IMG/VR virus record: IMGVR_UViG_3300046507_000908
Coordinates: 1 to 29,407 of that record
Length of the DNA stretch: 29,407 nt
DNA from: a virus
Strand: one strand, 5' to 3'
Position 1 is the stretch's first letter. Every line of letters begins with the position of its first letter. Positions 2,866 through 8,911 of this stretch are shown here, one piece after another. The notes below the pieces were generated by a model. It did not search any database, was not told the origin of the DNA, and saw only the letters and a list, made by a program, of their open reading frames with translations. The position numbers and the translations under genes were made by a program.

Positions 2866-3813
2866 TTACAGCACTTCGCCAACGTCACTGAGAATATCCC
2901 GCCAGAAAACGAAGGCGTCGTCCATTTCGCCGCTCGACAGCTTTTTGGTGTAGATCGCAAAGCCAGCGACCGTCGCCGCTGGAGTGGTCGTGGTATAGTA
3001 TCCGGTGCGCAGCTTCCGGCTGGTGCTCCCCACGGGGTTCGACGTGCGAGGACCAGCCACTGCGGAGCCGACCCGAGCCGGGCCGGAACGTTGGATGAAG
3101 CCTTGACCGGCCGTCAGGTCATACTGCGAGACGCCCATGCTCCACGTCGCCGCGCCGTTGACGAAGCCGGACGACGTGGAGACGTTGACCACTGCCGATG
3201 CACTGTCGCGGCCGAAGGTTTGGATATCGAATGCGGCCGGCACCAGCATGCCCATAGTGCCGCCGTTGACATCATCCATCAAGATGCCCTGGTTGATTGG
3301 CGCCTTGTAGATGGCCAAGAGGGTGAGCGCGCTCCCGATGTTGAAGATGTCTCGCGTAAAGCCCGGCGCTTCGAAGCAGCGGGTGAAGGCGCGCATCGAA
3401 CTCGAAGGCGTGTTCACGCCGCCAGTGAGGTTATAGGTGCCCGCGCCACCCGTGCCGGTGCCAAACGACGAGATGATCCCGAGACTGCCGCCCGCGCCCG
3501 TCGCCAGTTCGATCGTCTGGCCGATTACGAGAGGATCGCCAGACACCGTGCCAGTGACCGTCAACAGGTTGCCGCCAGTGATCGCCCCGGAGAAGGACGT
3601 CGCCATCGGTCCGCTCGATAGACCAACTGCGCCAGGGGAGCCGATCAAGCGCCCATCATTCGCGCCCGTGAACAGGTTGACGGTCGGCGTGTCGTTCAGC
3701 GACGTGCCAAACATATAGGCGGCATAGCCGGCGCCGTAGGTCGGGCAGGACCGGGTGCGCCCATAACCGAATCCCGACGCGTCAAATCCAGTGTAGGGAA
3801 TTCCAATTCTCAT
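2866..3813 (-). CDS. Putative tail fibre / receptor-binding accessory protein
   Basis: The protein has 315 residues, rich in Gly, Ser and Thr, with a jelly-roll-like middle part and no transmembrane segment. Its ATG overlaps the stop of the large tail-fibre gene (ATGA, 3810-3813), so the two are probably co-translated. The C-terminus has a pattern seen in lectin-like phage adhesins (GFAIYTKKLSSGEMDDAFVF, common where a concanavalin-like fold ends in an alpha-helical segment). I do not recognise a named family. Location and composition suggest the distal, host-range-determining part of the tail. It is the last structural gene before the lysis block and the acyltransferase. Confidence 0.6.
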   Translation of the reverse strand: MRIGIPYTGFDASGFGYGRTRSCPTYGAGYAAYMFGTSLNDTPTVNLFTGANDGRLIGSPGAVGLSSGPMATSFSGAITGGNLLTVTGTVSGDPLVIGQTIELATGAGGSLGIISSFGTGTGGAGTYNLTGGVNTPSSSMRAFTRCFEAPGFTRDIFNIGSALTLLAIYKAPINQGILMDDVNGGTMGMLVPAAFDIQTFGRDSASAVVNVSTSSGFVNGAATWSMGVSQYDLTAGQGFIQRSGPARVGSAVAGPRTSNPVGSTSRKLRTGYYTTTTPAATVAGFAIYTKKLSSGEMDDAFVFWRDILSDVGEVL

Positions 3814-5933
3814 GTCAGGGGCACCTCACAAATAGGCAGCCAGCGATACATCGGCAGGCGCAGTCCATAGGGATCGAAGATCAGCGTGGAGTCGGCGCGG
3901 GTTTCGGCGATGTTGGTCCACCCCTTGGTGTTGTTGCCGTTATAGCCGCAGCGGAATTTCCAGGCGTTGGCGGGCGCCGTCGGCGCGTCCCAGACGATGC
4001 GATCGCGAGCCACCACGCGCGGATTGCTGAGCGTCTTTGCGGCGCCGCCGGAATCGACCGCGGCAACGCCCCAATTAGCCAGAACAGTTGTGTCGGCAAC
4101 GGTCAGGCCGCCAGCTATCGCGTGGCCAAGCCTGACCGGGAAGGTCGCGATAATCTGGGAGTTCTGCGCGGTGAAGGTCGGCACCATCGGCCCGATACGC
4201 AGGCCATCAAACATCAGTCGTTTGAGATGCCAGCCGAAATAGGCGCCCATCTGTTTGCTGCCGGCGCCCGTCATGTGGACGTCGTTGACGCCGTTCTGCA
4301 CGCCATACTGAATGCAGGCGAGGATGAACTCCTGGTGATCGAGCGCGAGCTGGAGCTGGTCAAGCGCGACGTGCGGGGTCGGCGCGAGGTAGGACGGGTT
4401 GGTGTGCGTCGCTGTCTGCCCGATCAGGAGCGGCAGGATCGCATTGGGACTGATGAGTTTTTGCGCGATCGCCTTCGCCTGCCGCTGTGCTTGGACTGTC
4501 TGCGCGCGCGTATAGAACCACTTTTCGTTGCCGATCGGGTAATAGATCGCATCGCTGGCGTTGTCGTTCGTGCCAGTGATGATCATCTGTCCGGCAGGCG
4601 CATAACCCTTCCCGAGTCCGCCATAGAGCGCTTGGGCTTGTGACCAAGAGGCATATACGCGCTGAGCGGTCATGCCGACATTGGTCTCGTCCTCTGTCAT
4701 GATGCTGCCGCCATTACGGCCATCATCGGCCAGCAAGAAGCGCATGCCCGACCCAAGGAAATCGATGCCGTCCTCGTCCCTGAGAAGTTGCACGATCATC
4801 TGGGCACACCCGGTCAGCGGGGTTTCGCCGTGGCTGGTCCAGTCATCAGTATCGGGGCCGTAGGTGGTTTCAACTGCTGGTGTGAGCGCGGCACGGTTTG
4901 AGATCAGATCGGGATCTGACACGCTCGAGATGTCGCTGATGTCGTCCGGGACGATGCTGGCTTTCGTGAGCCCGGCATTCCCGAACATATCCGAGGTCGT
5001 GCTTGTGCCCACGGTTACGACTGGTGACCCATGCCCAAGCGACAGGGATTCGCCGGACATATGCAGGCCGATGCGCTCCGCAATGATGCGCATATTAGCG
5101 ATCGACGAATCGGCCGGTCCACGAAGGGCCGCCACGATCCGGTTCGACATCGTCTCGATGACCTTGTGCTGCAGGGTGGTCGGCGATGCCTTCAGCCAAT
5201 TGTAGCCGTTGCTGTCGACCAACGAAAAGGTCGCGGCGCCGGGCGTGCCAATCAGCGGCAGCTTGGAAGCATTGGCTTCTAGAGCCGCTAAGCGCAATTT
5301 GATCAGGTCGATCGCGGCGTGCTTGATGTCCGTGAGCGTGATGTTGAGCCAGCGATAGCCCGCCGTATCGGTAAGAGCGAAACCTGCTGGGCCGCGGAAA
5401 AACCACCCGATTGAGGCCGCACTCGCCGCCGCCGCGGCAGCAGAAGTCGCCGCGGCCGAGGCGCTCGATATCGCCTGTCGGATCAGCGACGCGCCGCCCA
5501 AGGCCAGGTCCGCCGCCACCAAAGCTATATTGCTGGCGCCACTCAACAGATCCGCGGCGACGGTCCCGATCTTGCTCGCCGCGCCGAGCGCCAGGTCGGC
5601 GACGACTGCAACGAACCCGGGAGCGGTCGTGGCCGCGGTGACCGATGCCACCTGCGCATTCAACTGCGTCAGGTCGTACAATTGCAGATCGTGCACCTTC
5701 GGCGCGAGATACGATCCGTCCGCCGATGCTATCTGCACGTCATAGGCACCGTTGGCAGCGGCGAACCCCACCAGCCCGGACATCGCCGCCGTCATCGGAT
5801 TGGTCAGGCCTGCACCGCTATTGTCGAAGATCGATGCCAACGTCGTCGTGCCCGCGAGAAACACGGTGACCTTGGCAAGCGGCAACACGGCCCCCGTGTC
5901 GCCACGGGAGGCGATGAACTCGTAATATTGCAT
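3810..5933 (-). CDS. Tail fibre/tailspike with SGNH esterase-like domain
   Basis: This 707-residue protein starts with a domain typical of phage tail-fibre N-termini (residues 1-90, ending in GAYDVQIASADGSYLAPKV). An Ala-rich stalk follows (about 95-175), then two copies of a short module containing F-x-L-x-D-x-x-GYxWL (about 184-200 and 236-251). From about residue 280 there are SGNH-hydrolase-like motifs: MSGESLSLGHGSP with candidate nucleophile Ser296, MIITGTNDNAS with Asn456, and NDVHMTGAGSKQMGAYFGWH with candidate His553. Such domains deacylate glycans in other phage spikes. The block V spacing (D-x-H rather than DxxH) is not textbook, so activity is inferred. The C-terminal ~130 residues look like a beta-rich domain that could bind ligand. 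It overlaps the following fibre gene by four bases. Confidence 0.75.
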   Translation of the reverse strand: MQYYEFIASRGDTGAVLPLAKVTVFLAGTTTLASIFDNSGAGLTNPMTAAMSGLVGFAAANGAYDVQIASADGSYLAPKVHDLQLYDLTQLNAQVASVTAATTAPGFVAVVADLALGAASKIGTVAADLLSGASNIALVAADLALGGASLIRQAISSASAAATSAAAAAASAASIGWFFRGPAGFALTDTAGYRWLNITLTDIKHAAIDLIKLRLAALEANASKLPLIGTPGAATFSLVDSNGYNWLKASPTTLQHKVIETMSNRIVAALRGPADSSIANMRIIAERIGLHMSGESLSLGHGSPVVTVGTSTTSDMFGNAGLTKASIVPDDISDISSVSDPDLISNRAALTPAVETTYGPDTDDWTSHGETPLTGCAQMIVQLLRDEDGIDFLGSGMRFLLADDGRNGGSIMTEDETNVGMTAQRVYASWSQAQALYGGLGKGYAPAGQMIITGTNDNASDAIYYPIGNEKWFYTRAQTVQAQRQAKAIAQKLISPNAILPLLIGQTATHTNPSYLAPTPHVALDQLQLALDHQEFILACIQYGVQNGVNDVHMTGAGSKQMGAYFGWHLKRLMFDGLRIGPMVPTFTAQNSQIIATFPVRLGHAIAGGLTVADTTVLANWGVAAVDSGGAAKTLSNPRVVARDRIVWDAPTAPANAWKFRCGYNGNNTKGWTNIAETRADSTLIFDPYGLRLPMYRWLPICEVPLT

Positions 5934-5968: not shown

Positions 5969-8911
5969 CTACAGCGTCGGCTGTACTTTGTAATTGTGCG
6001 ACAGCACGCCGTCGGACACGTAGGTATGGGCATCGCCGACGGTGATCTTAGCGACGCGCGCTTCGCCGGTGGCGACGCCTATCTCTTCCATCATCACCCA
6101 GCGATGATCGCGCCAGAACCGGTGACGCGGCGTTGCCTTGGGATAGCCGTCGGCGGCGAACACCGGATCGAGCGAGAACGAGATCGCGGTGACCGGATAA
6201 GCGCCCCAAGCCAACGTGATCTCGTGTTGGGTCCAGACCCAGTCGCCCACCTCGACCGCCGACGCCGGCTTCTGGAGTCCCGGCCCGGAGCGCTCGGCGT
6301 CGGCCATCAGGATCAGCGCTGAATCGATCACGCAGCGGCCGTTATAGCCGCCACCGCCATCGCCACCCCCGCCCGGCGAACTGCCGCCGCCGGTGGAGAT
6401 GGTGAACGTCTGCTCGGCGGATAGGTTGAGGAAGGCGGGGTCGGCGGTCCAGCCGTCATAGGCGGCGATGCGGCCATAGTAGGTGCCGGCCGCCAGGCCA
6501 TAGACGGTGATAGACGGAATGCCGGCCGACAGCACTCCGCCCGAGGTGGAGGGATTGAACCCGCTGGTCGACGAATAGAACATGACATAGCCGGCGAGAT
6601 CCGGGTCGGTCGAGGCGGCGCATGTCATCGTGCCGTTGGTCGTGCCGCCAACCGCCGCCGGCGACGACACTGCGGGCGGAGCATTGTTGGTGACGACCAG
6701 CCAGGATGACGGCGGCGCATCCCCCGCCGCGTTCGAGGCGATGACCTCGACATGATAGACCCGGCTCACGCCGTCCTGCGCCGCCAGCGCGGACGTATAG
6801 GTGGCCGCCGGGGTGGAGGTCACGATCTCGCGCTTGAGCGTGGTCCGGTCGGCCAGATAGAAACGAAATTTATAGGTCACTGCGCGCGCCGAGGGATCGC
6901 ACACGACCGACAGCGAACTGCCGTCCCAGGCATGGGCAAGCGCGAGGCCGGTTACCGGATCGGGCAGTGCCGTCGAGGGCGTGAGCGACACCGTGTAAGG
7001 CGACAGCGCCGACAAATCCTCGGTCTCCTGGCCGAAGATGTTGAACGACGGGAATTTGACGTAGATCGTCGAGCCGACGTTGAGGCTCGCATAGCTGAAC
7101 TTGAACACCGCATCGTCGAGCCGGATGAAACGCTGGCCGACGGCATGGCTTGCCGGCAACGTTCCGGCGAATCCGCGGCGCAAGGTAGTCAGGCTATAGG
7201 TGCCGGCCCCCGTCAGCGTCGCGGTCTGATAGGCAACCAACTCGTCACCGACCATGCATAGCGAACCACCGGCATTGGCCTCGGCCGCCGTCGCCGACCC
7301 GAGCTCGCCGCGTGACGCGGTGAGGTCGACCGCGAGCGTGTTTGCCGTGTCGGGATCGGCATGGCTGGCCAGCGCAGCCGCCAGCACGCCATAGCGCGCC
7401 GGCCCGTTGATCGTGCCGGCGCGGGAATAGGTGACGTTGTCGACACTCACCCAAATTTCGCAGCCACCCCAATTCGGCGACGACGACGCGACGGCGCACC
7501 ATATCTCCGGGTCGCCGTTGGTGAGCGAGGTTGGCGCATTGATTAGGGCAGGCGTCGAAACCGAACCCGGAGCGTCCGCCGCATTGGGCTGGCGATCGGG
7601 TCCGCTCGAATGCGAGGCATAGAGCGCGGCCGATGCGGTGCCGACCGGCACGCCCTCGGCAGTAATCGACAGCAGTCCGTCGGCGTCCTCGCCAATCTCG
7701 GTGATCCGCACCAGCACCCGGTTGAGCGACAGCGAGTCGGTGGTCGTCGTCAGCGTGACGAGATCGGTCGGCTCGAGCAGTGCGAAGTTCCAGGGCAGTT
7801 TGAACGTGTATTTCTCGCGCGTGTAGAGCACGCGCTGGCCGTAAAGCTGGACCGCTTTGCGCGCGATCGCCGCGTCGCAGATGCAATGGACATTGGTCGG
7901 ATCCTGCTTGCGCCGGCCATAGGTGACGATGTTATCGAGATCCTGGGCGGTCGCGATGCCGACATTATATTGCTGGCTGCGATCCAGGAATTCGAACTGG
8001 ACGATGTTATAGGCGTCGGACTGGTCGACGATTTCGATCGAGACGGCGTTGCCGCTGTCGTCGACCACCAGATCGTCCTCGGTCAGGTCGTACACCGGGA
8101 TCAGGTTCGGCGTCCAGGTCACCGAATTGCCCGTCGCCGCGGCATCGCCATACGGCCGGATCTTGAGCATCCCTTCCGACCAATAGACCGCCGCGTTGGT
8201 CGCGGTCAGCCATTCCTCCAGGATCGACGCCGCGCTCGACTGCGATTCGAGCATTGGCGAGAGCAGCAGGTTGTTGGCGCGGCAATAGAGGGAATAGTCA
8301 GACAGATCGCCAATCAGGCCCGATCCCCACATCGGCACGCCGTACGCGGGGTTGGTCAGGAAATCGGCGATGATATCCTTCGGATCGGCATCGCACACGC
8401 CGCCGCCGAGCTGGGTCGTGAAGTCGATCTCGAAACTGTGATTCGACAGGGTGGCGCTGTCGGCAAGATCGTAATCCTGGGCATAGACATAGGCGATGCC
8501 GGAATAATTGATCGCCTGAGCGGGGAATTTGGACGTCAGATAGCCCCAGACCGGCTGGGTTGCTGCGCCCGTTGCCAGGCTCAGCCCGGCGGCCGAGAGC
8601 GTGGTCAACACCGCGGTATCCTTGTAGATCGTGCGGATGCCCTGAATGCCGCTCGCACCTCCTTCGCAGATGCCCATGACGATCGAGGCGGTATAGGTGT
8701 AGGTCGTGTTCTTGGACCCACCGCCCAGGCCCTTGCCCGCACTGGTCTTGGTCGTGTGCGGGATCGCCGTGAAAGCGTTGTACCAGATGAGATTGCACTT
8801 CATCCGGCCGCGACCCCAGCCAAGCGAGATCGGCAGGCCAAGGGTAGACGATTGGACCTGCAAGCCGTTGAGCTTTGGTGATGTGGTCGAGGTAGACTTG
8901 CCGCCCATCAT
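5969..8911 (-). CDS. Tail tip / host-specificity protein with fn3-like region and C-terminal Hint domain
   Basis: The product has 980 residues and is the tail-tip protein equivalent to the large last gene of the GTA cassette. The N-terminus carries the usual Gly-rich segment of these proteins (GKGLGGGSKNTTYTYTASIV, about 60-79). A phage-tail domain spans about 170-480, and a fibronectin III-like region about 690-835 (YHVEVIASNAAGDAPPSSW and a second copy ending in YYGRIAAYDG). A Gly-rich linker (about 840-859) leads into a 114-residue Hint domain, Cys860 to Asn973, described separately. The start is the ATG at 8911, which overlaps the stop of the peptidase gene (ATGA). An open extension upstream to 9172 overlaps that gene out of frame and is rejected. 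The protein should sit at the distal end of the tail. Confidence 0.87.
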   Translation of the reverse strand: MMGGKSTSTTSPKLNGLQVQSSTLGLPISLGWGRGRMKCNLIWYNAFTAIPHTTKTSAGKGLGGGSKNTTYTYTASIVMGICEGGASGIQGIRTIYKDTAVLTTLSAAGLSLATGAATQPVWGYLTSKFPAQAINYSGIAYVYAQDYDLADSATLSNHSFEIDFTTQLGGGVCDADPKDIIADFLTNPAYGVPMWGSGLIGDLSDYSLYCRANNLLLSPMLESQSSAASILEEWLTATNAAVYWSEGMLKIRPYGDAAATGNSVTWTPNLIPVYDLTEDDLVVDDSGNAVSIEIVDQSDAYNIVQFEFLDRSQQYNVGIATAQDLDNIVTYGRRKQDPTNVHCICDAAIARKAVQLYGQRVLYTREKYTFKLPWNFALLEPTDLVTLTTTTDSLSLNRVLVRITEIGEDADGLLSITAEGVPVGTASAALYASHSSGPDRQPNAADAPGSVSTPALINAPTSLTNGDPEIWCAVASSSPNWGGCEIWVSVDNVTYSRAGTINGPARYGVLAAALASHADPDTANTLAVDLTASRGELGSATAAEANAGGSLCMVGDELVAYQTATLTGAGTYSLTTLRRGFAGTLPASHAVGQRFIRLDDAVFKFSYASLNVGSTIYVKFPSFNIFGQETEDLSALSPYTVSLTPSTALPDPVTGLALAHAWDGSSLSVVCDPSARAVTYKFRFYLADRTTLKREIVTSTPAATYTSALAAQDGVSRVYHVEVIASNAAGDAPPSSWLVVTNNAPPAVSSPAAVGGTTNGTMTCAASTDPDLAGYVMFYSSTSGFNPSTSGGVLSAGIPSITVYGLAAGTYYGRIAAYDGWTADPAFLNLSAEQTFTISTGGGSSPGGGGDGGGGYNGRCVIDSALILMADAERSGPGLQKPASAVEVGDWVWTQHEITLAWGAYPVTAISFSLDPVFAADGYPKATPRHRFWRDHRWVMMEEIGVATGEARVAKITVGDAHTYVSDGVLSHNYKVQPTL
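5993..6334 (-). other. Hint (intein/hedgehog-like) autoprocessing domain at the C-terminus of the tail-tip protein
   Basis: These codons encode residues 860-973 of the tail-tip protein. The domain starts with Cys860 after a glycine-rich linker (CVIDSALILM), followed by VEVGDWVWT as in Hint block A. A TxxH motif (TPRH, Thr927-His930) matches block B. The end reads ITVGDAHTYVSDGVLSHN, the block F/G pattern with the His972-Asn973 pair. All residues needed for thioester formation and Asn cyclisation are therefore present. The residue after Asn973 is Tyr, not Cys, Ser or Thr, and only seven residues follow. Ordinary intein splicing is thus unlikely, and cleavage of the bacterial intein-like type is the expected chemistry. 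Confidence 0.8.

Follow-up and report, generated by a model that had tools for sequence, protein, structure and literature searches.

A predicted self-processing Hint domain caps a phage tail hub protein and recurs on unrelated tail proteins

The C terminus of a tail hub protein encoded in IMG/VR virus record IMGVR_UViG_3300046507_000908 is a catalytically complete Hint domain, predicted from its sequence and structural model to be active. It belongs to a large and apparently undescribed family of Hint domains on phage tails. The active-site residues are invariant in all members collected, and the domain is carried by tail proteins of at least three unrelated kinds.

The window, that is, the whole stretch of DNA that we analysed, comprises positions 1 to 29,407 of the record (29,407 nt). 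Its features relevant to the hub are as follows.

3810..5933, minus strand: tail fibre gene, next after the hub gene and a possible partner (PHROG_4201 tail fibre, 9.9e-27)
5969..8911, minus strand: tail hub protein of Megatron/J type, 980 aa, with C-terminal Hint domain (ORF and translation; PF13550, PF23666, PHROG_1101, 8gtc_M)
7694..8245, minus strand: Phage-tail_3 domain, hub residues 223-406 (Pfam)
7124..7399, minus strand: Rcc01698_C domain, hub residues 505-596 (Pfam)
6335..6391, minus strand: Gly-rich linker GGGSSPGGGGDGGGGYNGR, residues 841-859, from the last hub domain to the Hint domain (sequence)
5993..6334, minus strand: Hint domain, Cys860-Asn973, 114 aa (fold by profile, AlphaFold and Foldseek; family)
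6332..6334, minus strand: Cys860, block A, predicted thioester-forming residue (invariant in 112/112 domains)
6122..6124, minus strand: His930, in the block-B motif TPRH (invariant in 112/112; aligns with the block-B His of DnaB inteins)
5993..5998, minus strand: His972-Asn973, block G, predicted Asn-cyclisation site (invariant in 112/112)
5972..5992, minus strand: C-terminal flank YKVQPTL, without a +1 nucleophile and with Lys at +2 (sequence)

The first-pass annotation had named the carrier a tail-tip protein, and domain searches agree. The two domains that mark the Megatron type were both found in the hub by Pfam (Phage-tail_3, PF13550, 1.7e-32; Rcc01698_C, PF23666, 5e-20), PHROG_1101 (tail protein) matched it at 3.4e-114, and the match to the solved Megatron 8gtc was weak but specific (2.2e-5). 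Against the full-length Megatron equivalog NF048004 it scored 167.5 bits, below the cut-off of 800, and is a partial, shorter homologue. We preferred a start at 8911 because MMGG opens five homologues at the same place. Near the right end of the window lies a bacterial metabolic gene, an aromatic-ring hydroxylase/FAD monooxygenase (PF01494 and PF21274; 25912-27492, minus strand). This gene is probably host flank, and the window therefore appears to be a provirus with some host DNA attached.

The translated hub ends in ...GGGGYNGR-C860...H972-N973-YKVQPTL-stop. The earlier boundaries at 5993-6334, from Cys860 to Asn973, proved exact (the codons start at 6334 and end at 5993), and the 114-residue domain has no homing endonuclease insert. 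Queried as a single sequence, it was borderline for intein_Cterm (15.1-15.4 bits, cut-off 15.6) and had zero matches in Pfam. A family profile built from 24 relatives matched inteins in the PDB, namely the DnaB, DnaX and RecA class 1 mini-inteins (E = 5.8e-7), and matched structures of bacterial intein-like (BIL) domains at 0.003-0.024, with 2lwy weakly at E = 0.024. AlphaFold modelled the domain with a pLDDT of 93.6 and a pTM of 0.86, and a Foldseek search with this model returned 27 PDB matches at E ≤ 0.001, every one an intein, BIL, Vint or Hedgehog structure. The best was BIL2 of Tetrahymena BUBL1 (6y75, 6tmm; E = 4.4e-7, TM 0.77, 19% identity), and the others included DnaB inteins, a Vint domain, a clostridial BIL and Hedgehog (1at0). 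Both the profile and the model thus recover a Hint fold, and the earlier proposal of a complete domain stands, as does its statement that all residues for thioester formation and Asn cyclisation are present. Compared with its five nearest hub homologues, the domain has a dN/dS of about 0.07-0.29, which indicates purifying selection. A chance motif is ruled out by the family profile, the AlphaFold model, the Foldseek matches, the invariant catalytic positions and this selection. Sequence matches to the cholera toxin A chain were weak (E about 0.55) and at the level of chance.

We collected relatives with four IMG/VR scans and genome searches, which gave 112 distinct domains that fall into 64 clusters at 70% identity; the census depends on the patterns searched for and does not cover the family exhaustively, and the relatives are mostly metagenomic fragments. 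Four residues are kept in 112/112 domains (Cys1, the His of block B and the His-Asn pair at the end), and other motif positions vary: a block-F His is present in 92/112, the block-B Thr/Ser is variable, and the block-F position that is Asp in class 1 inteins is Lys or Arg in 94/112. At +1, the nucleophiles of ordinary splicing are almost absent (Cys in one domain, Thr in two, Ser in none), and the commonest residues there are Ile, Lys, Ala, Leu and Val. In 55 of the 64 clusters, Gly and Pro make up at least 40% of the 25 residues ahead of Cys1. A few members match PF07591 (PT-HINT), weakly in each case. Because its pattern was narrow, a scan of genome contigs yielded two Sphingomonas loci only. 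Hint-profile matches occurred in 5 of 399 Sphingomonadaceae genomes (four of them strong), and a relative was present in only one of 50,697 phage records.

Beyond the terminal Asn, one feature is conserved: a Lys at +1 or +2 in 60 of the 64 clusters, with no other conservation at the positions after it. Some scan patterns had touched His-Asn, and an artefact of the search was therefore considered; a recount restricted to loci from a scan blind to the Lys position still gave 24/26 clusters against an expected 7% or so (P about 4e-26, with clusters treated as independent). An origin of the Lys as a by-product of the Shine-Dalgarno sequence of the next gene was rejected as well, since proteins with 45-980 residues past Asn carry it too. 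We compared 22 alphaproteobacterial Hint domains that retain His-Asn but lie outside the family: the Lys occurs in 10 of them and Cys, Ser or Thr at +1 in 7; the Lys is thus enriched in the tail family and not exclusive to it. Six alphaproteobacterial Hint proteins outside the family end 1-5 residues past VHN-K, so that a short Lys-bearing tail exists outside phage tails too.

Carriers were classed by similarity of the sequence N-terminal to the domain, and the classes were identified from PHROG and Pfam, with the solved nozzle 8ck1 (3.5e-17 and 3.7e-59) identifying the nozzle class. The largest class comprises 55 proteins resembling the J/Megatron hub, with 1-12 residues past Asn (the single 1 being a contig end). 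A further 14 carriers are N-terminal parts of podovirus tail nozzles, with 5-11 residues past Asn, and 13 are lambda gpI-like tail assembly proteins with 6-14 residues past Asn. The remainder are mostly unknown proteins, frequently with long Pro-rich C-terminal flanks. As judged from sequence, at least three kinds of tail protein with no relation to one another carry the Hint domain as an exchangeable C-terminal cap, joined through a linker rich in Gly or Pro. A quick tree of 63 domains, half of whose inner branches are weak, intermixes nozzle and J/hub copies, and the nozzle label needs five changes, at least two of them on starred branches; this mixing indicates that the module was passed among tail proteins that are themselves unrelated. 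Eight loci hold two Hint copies, one on a gpI-like protein and one on a protein resembling a fibre or the C-terminal part of J about 2.5 kb downstream, and searches of the whole records for three of these loci found the same two copies. J itself is divided into two ORFs in the two-copy phages. In six very large phage proteins the same Hint lies mid-protein between Pro-rich stretches, with 186-980 residues past Asn and Lys at +1; one of them (L091) is of the PHROG_358 type. The family-wide Lys, the exchange among tail proteins and the two-copy phages are not visible from one protein.

The cap is optional. In Pseudomonas phage KT1 and Acinetobacter phage vB_AbaSI_5, the homologous hub ends just after the last repeat before the linker and has no Hint, and a Sphingomonadaceae prophage hub with 77% identity across 646 residues finishes in an entirely different Gly-rich C terminus. 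Hubs without the Hint evidently function. A trigger by host contact, or a role in receptor binding, had been put forward for the domain; neither is supported. The module also sits on gpI-like proteins and nozzle N-terminal parts, which are not obvious sites of host contact, and is dispensable in close relatives of the hub.

In every nozzle-class locus with both parts visible, the gene is broken at the Hint: ORF A encodes nozzle residues about 1-110 and an FCCH-like domain, with the Hint at its end, ORF B encodes the rest of the nozzle, and the start of ORF B overlaps the stop of ORF A (TAATG, TGATG or ATGA). In one locus (L032:5374-5920), the FCCH-like domain, of the type found in ubiquitin-activating E1 (PF16190), was seen within the nozzle N-terminal part, adjoining the Hint linker. 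The nozzle is one continuous gene in the seven Hint-less phages inspected. The same split, with a Pro/Gly tail and no Hint, is present in four Sphingomonadaceae prophages, so that the nozzle break and linker are independent of the Hint; in Xanthomonas phage 10KY502B (L196:2429-5505), the nozzle is split at a different place, also with no Hint. Rejoining of the nozzle halves by trans-ligation as a needed function of the Hint was rejected on the grounds that the four prophages share the split without it and 10KY502B is also split. In locus L142 (5377-8183) and loci L199-L202, the split falls at a fixed point, 8ck1 residues about 111-120, where stop and start overlap, whether or not a Hint is present.

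Among known systems, the A-type BILs (Clostridium thermocellum, 2lwy; Magnetospirillum, with Tyr at +1) are similar in fold, Cys1, block-B His, His-Asn end, lack of a +1 Cys, Ser or Thr, lack of an endonuclease and location in variable protein regions. The tail family has the A-type features (His-Asn in 112/112, Tyr at +1 in the hub, and a variable location, the C termini of relatives being unrelated) along with those of the Hint superfamily at large, namely the fold and Cys at position 1 with the block-B His; it differs from A-type BILs in capping the C termini of phage tail-tip proteins, usually with 4-14 residues past Asn. BIL2 of Tetrahymena BUBL1 is closest in fold and comes from a ciliate, in a ubiquitin-like setting. 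The class 1 mini-inteins (DnaB, DnaX, RecA) are nearest by sequence profile and share blocks A, B and G, but they need a +1 nucleophile and sit in conserved sites of essential enzymes, neither of which holds for the tail Hint. An ordinary intein is likewise excluded for the hub, as the first-pass annotation had concluded from the Tyr at +1; only seven residues and a stop follow Asn973, and Hint-less homologues merely end or differ at this place. The PT-HINT domains of polymorphic toxins are also autoprocessing Hints near a C terminus; a toxin-release Hint of this kind was rejected, as no toxin domain follows the hub Hint, only the seven residues, and there is no Pfam match. The C-terminal (Hog) domain of Hedgehog shares the fold and the Cys1 thioester chemistry, whereas the hub Hint is without the sterol-binding extension and retains His-Asn. 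The RcGTA megatron, the Megatron hub of R4C-type phages and lambda J are homologous in the hub region, but the Megatron/J profiles stop before the Hint, which is an add-on in the hub.

We consider it fairly probable that the Hint is an A-type-BIL-like module that sheds itself in the infected cell during tail assembly. Cys860 would convert the peptide bond before it into a thioester, Asn973 would cyclise and thereby cut off the seven-residue tail, and, with Tyr at +1 instead of Cys, Ser or Thr, either water or an amine would resolve the thioester. Three main products would result: a hub whose C terminus is the Gly linker, the released Hint and the released YKVQPTL peptide. Attack of the freed peptide would yield hub-YKVQPTL as a minor product at most, and the mature tip would have lost the Hint largely or entirely. 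BILs without a +1 nucleophile mostly cleave, and the Magnetospirillum BIL with Tyr at +1 splices only once this residue is mutated to Cys (PMC4031507, PMC7664689). Self-shedding is further favoured by the agreement of fold and active site with inteins and BILs, by the four invariant catalytic residues with a near-universal Lys, and by the purifying selection. The Asn is kept even though the hub, gpI and nozzle classes have only 4-14 residues beyond it, so that the C-terminal reaction, and not only thioester formation, seems to be selected. On the other side, the case is made from sequence and a predicted model, the Lys or Arg in place of the block-F Asp may alter reaction rates, and hubs manage without the Hint.

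Other readings overlap with self-shedding, several sharing the self-cleavage and differing in the acyl acceptor, and their probabilities are therefore not exclusive. The conserved Lys, the sole conserved feature past Asn, suggests an intramolecular finishing reaction, in which the freed alpha-amine or the Lys of the tail would attack the thioester and leave hub-YKVQPTL joined by a peptide or isopeptide bond. Splicing by aminolysis without a side-chain nucleophile has been proposed for A-type BILs (PMC4031507), but published A-type BILs mostly cleave, the Lys could just assist Asn cyclisation, and its presence in 10/15 nucleophile-less Hints outside phages means that it need not be tail-specific; we regard this reaction as possible, with considerable doubt. 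The amine might instead come from the host surface or from a different tail protein, such as the fibre whose gene comes next, so that the end of the Gly linker would become amide-bonded to it. The linker is flexible and would let the hub end extend towards a partner, the tail fibre of RcGTA attaches to the megatron at its C-terminal domain (PMC7296036), the nearest solved fold is a BIL from a ciliate ubiquitin-like locus, and the module recurs across several tail-tip proteins. Such conjugation is nevertheless unlikely: a fibre gene with a similar N terminus, compared by eye, also directly follows the Hint-less hub of KT1, hubs with a Hint are followed by genes of several kinds that are unrelated to one another, split nozzles work without the Hint, and a search for a partner motif found none. 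Taken family-wide, a phage-specific conjugation or finishing tool, in which the thioester on a flexible tail-tip end passes to an amine (that of the short-tail Lys, of an adjacent protein of the tail or of a protein on the host surface), is a speculative suggestion with rather low odds; it would be a self-removing built-in enzyme that uses Lys in place of a +1 Cys, Ser or Thr and leaves a covalent bond at the tail tips of numerous phages.

An inactive relic, that is, a former intein retained as a folded C-terminal knob, would fit with the functioning of hubs that have no Hint, but catalytic losses would then be expected and none of the 112 domains has lost Cys1, the block-B His, His or Asn; the carriers are also non-canonical hosts for inteins, and we consider a relic improbable. 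A self-removing folding aid, like the chaperone domains that cleave themselves off some tail spikes, shares with the Hint the C-terminal site, the presumed self-removal and the occurrence on tail proteins; a long flexible linker separates the Hint from the folded hub, the carriers differ in structure (hub, gpI, nozzle N-terminal part) and close relatives fold without it, all of which make this role quite improbable. Bacterial defence that attaches ubiquitin-like proteins to the central tail fibre exists (reviewed in PMC11676413), and several Hint carriers are homologues of the central tail fibre J, so that shedding of the C terminus could in principle remove the attached proteins. Nothing places a modified Lys in the shed part, and we regard this speculative counter-defence as highly improbable.

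The first-pass annotation had called a Hint device at the tail tip novel, and it does seem to be undescribed in openly searchable papers. The open-access literature yielded reviews of inteins and BILs and intein-containing terminases, and no description of a Hint or BIL on phage tail proteins; BFVD already lists phage proteins named Hint or fibronectin-Hint, for which we found no description of a role in open-access papers. If the domains are active, they would represent self-processing that recurs across phage tails and is not described in searchable papers, with the same single-turnover enzyme borne independently by differing tail-tip proteins of siphovirus-like and podovirus-like phages. 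The predicted composition of the virion would then lack the Hint and have a modified linker end. Active domains may also offer new autocleaving or ligating tags, with Lys in the C-side flank instead of the usual nucleophile, and would call for caution in annotation, as the encoded C terminus of phage receptor-binding proteins may differ from the mature one.
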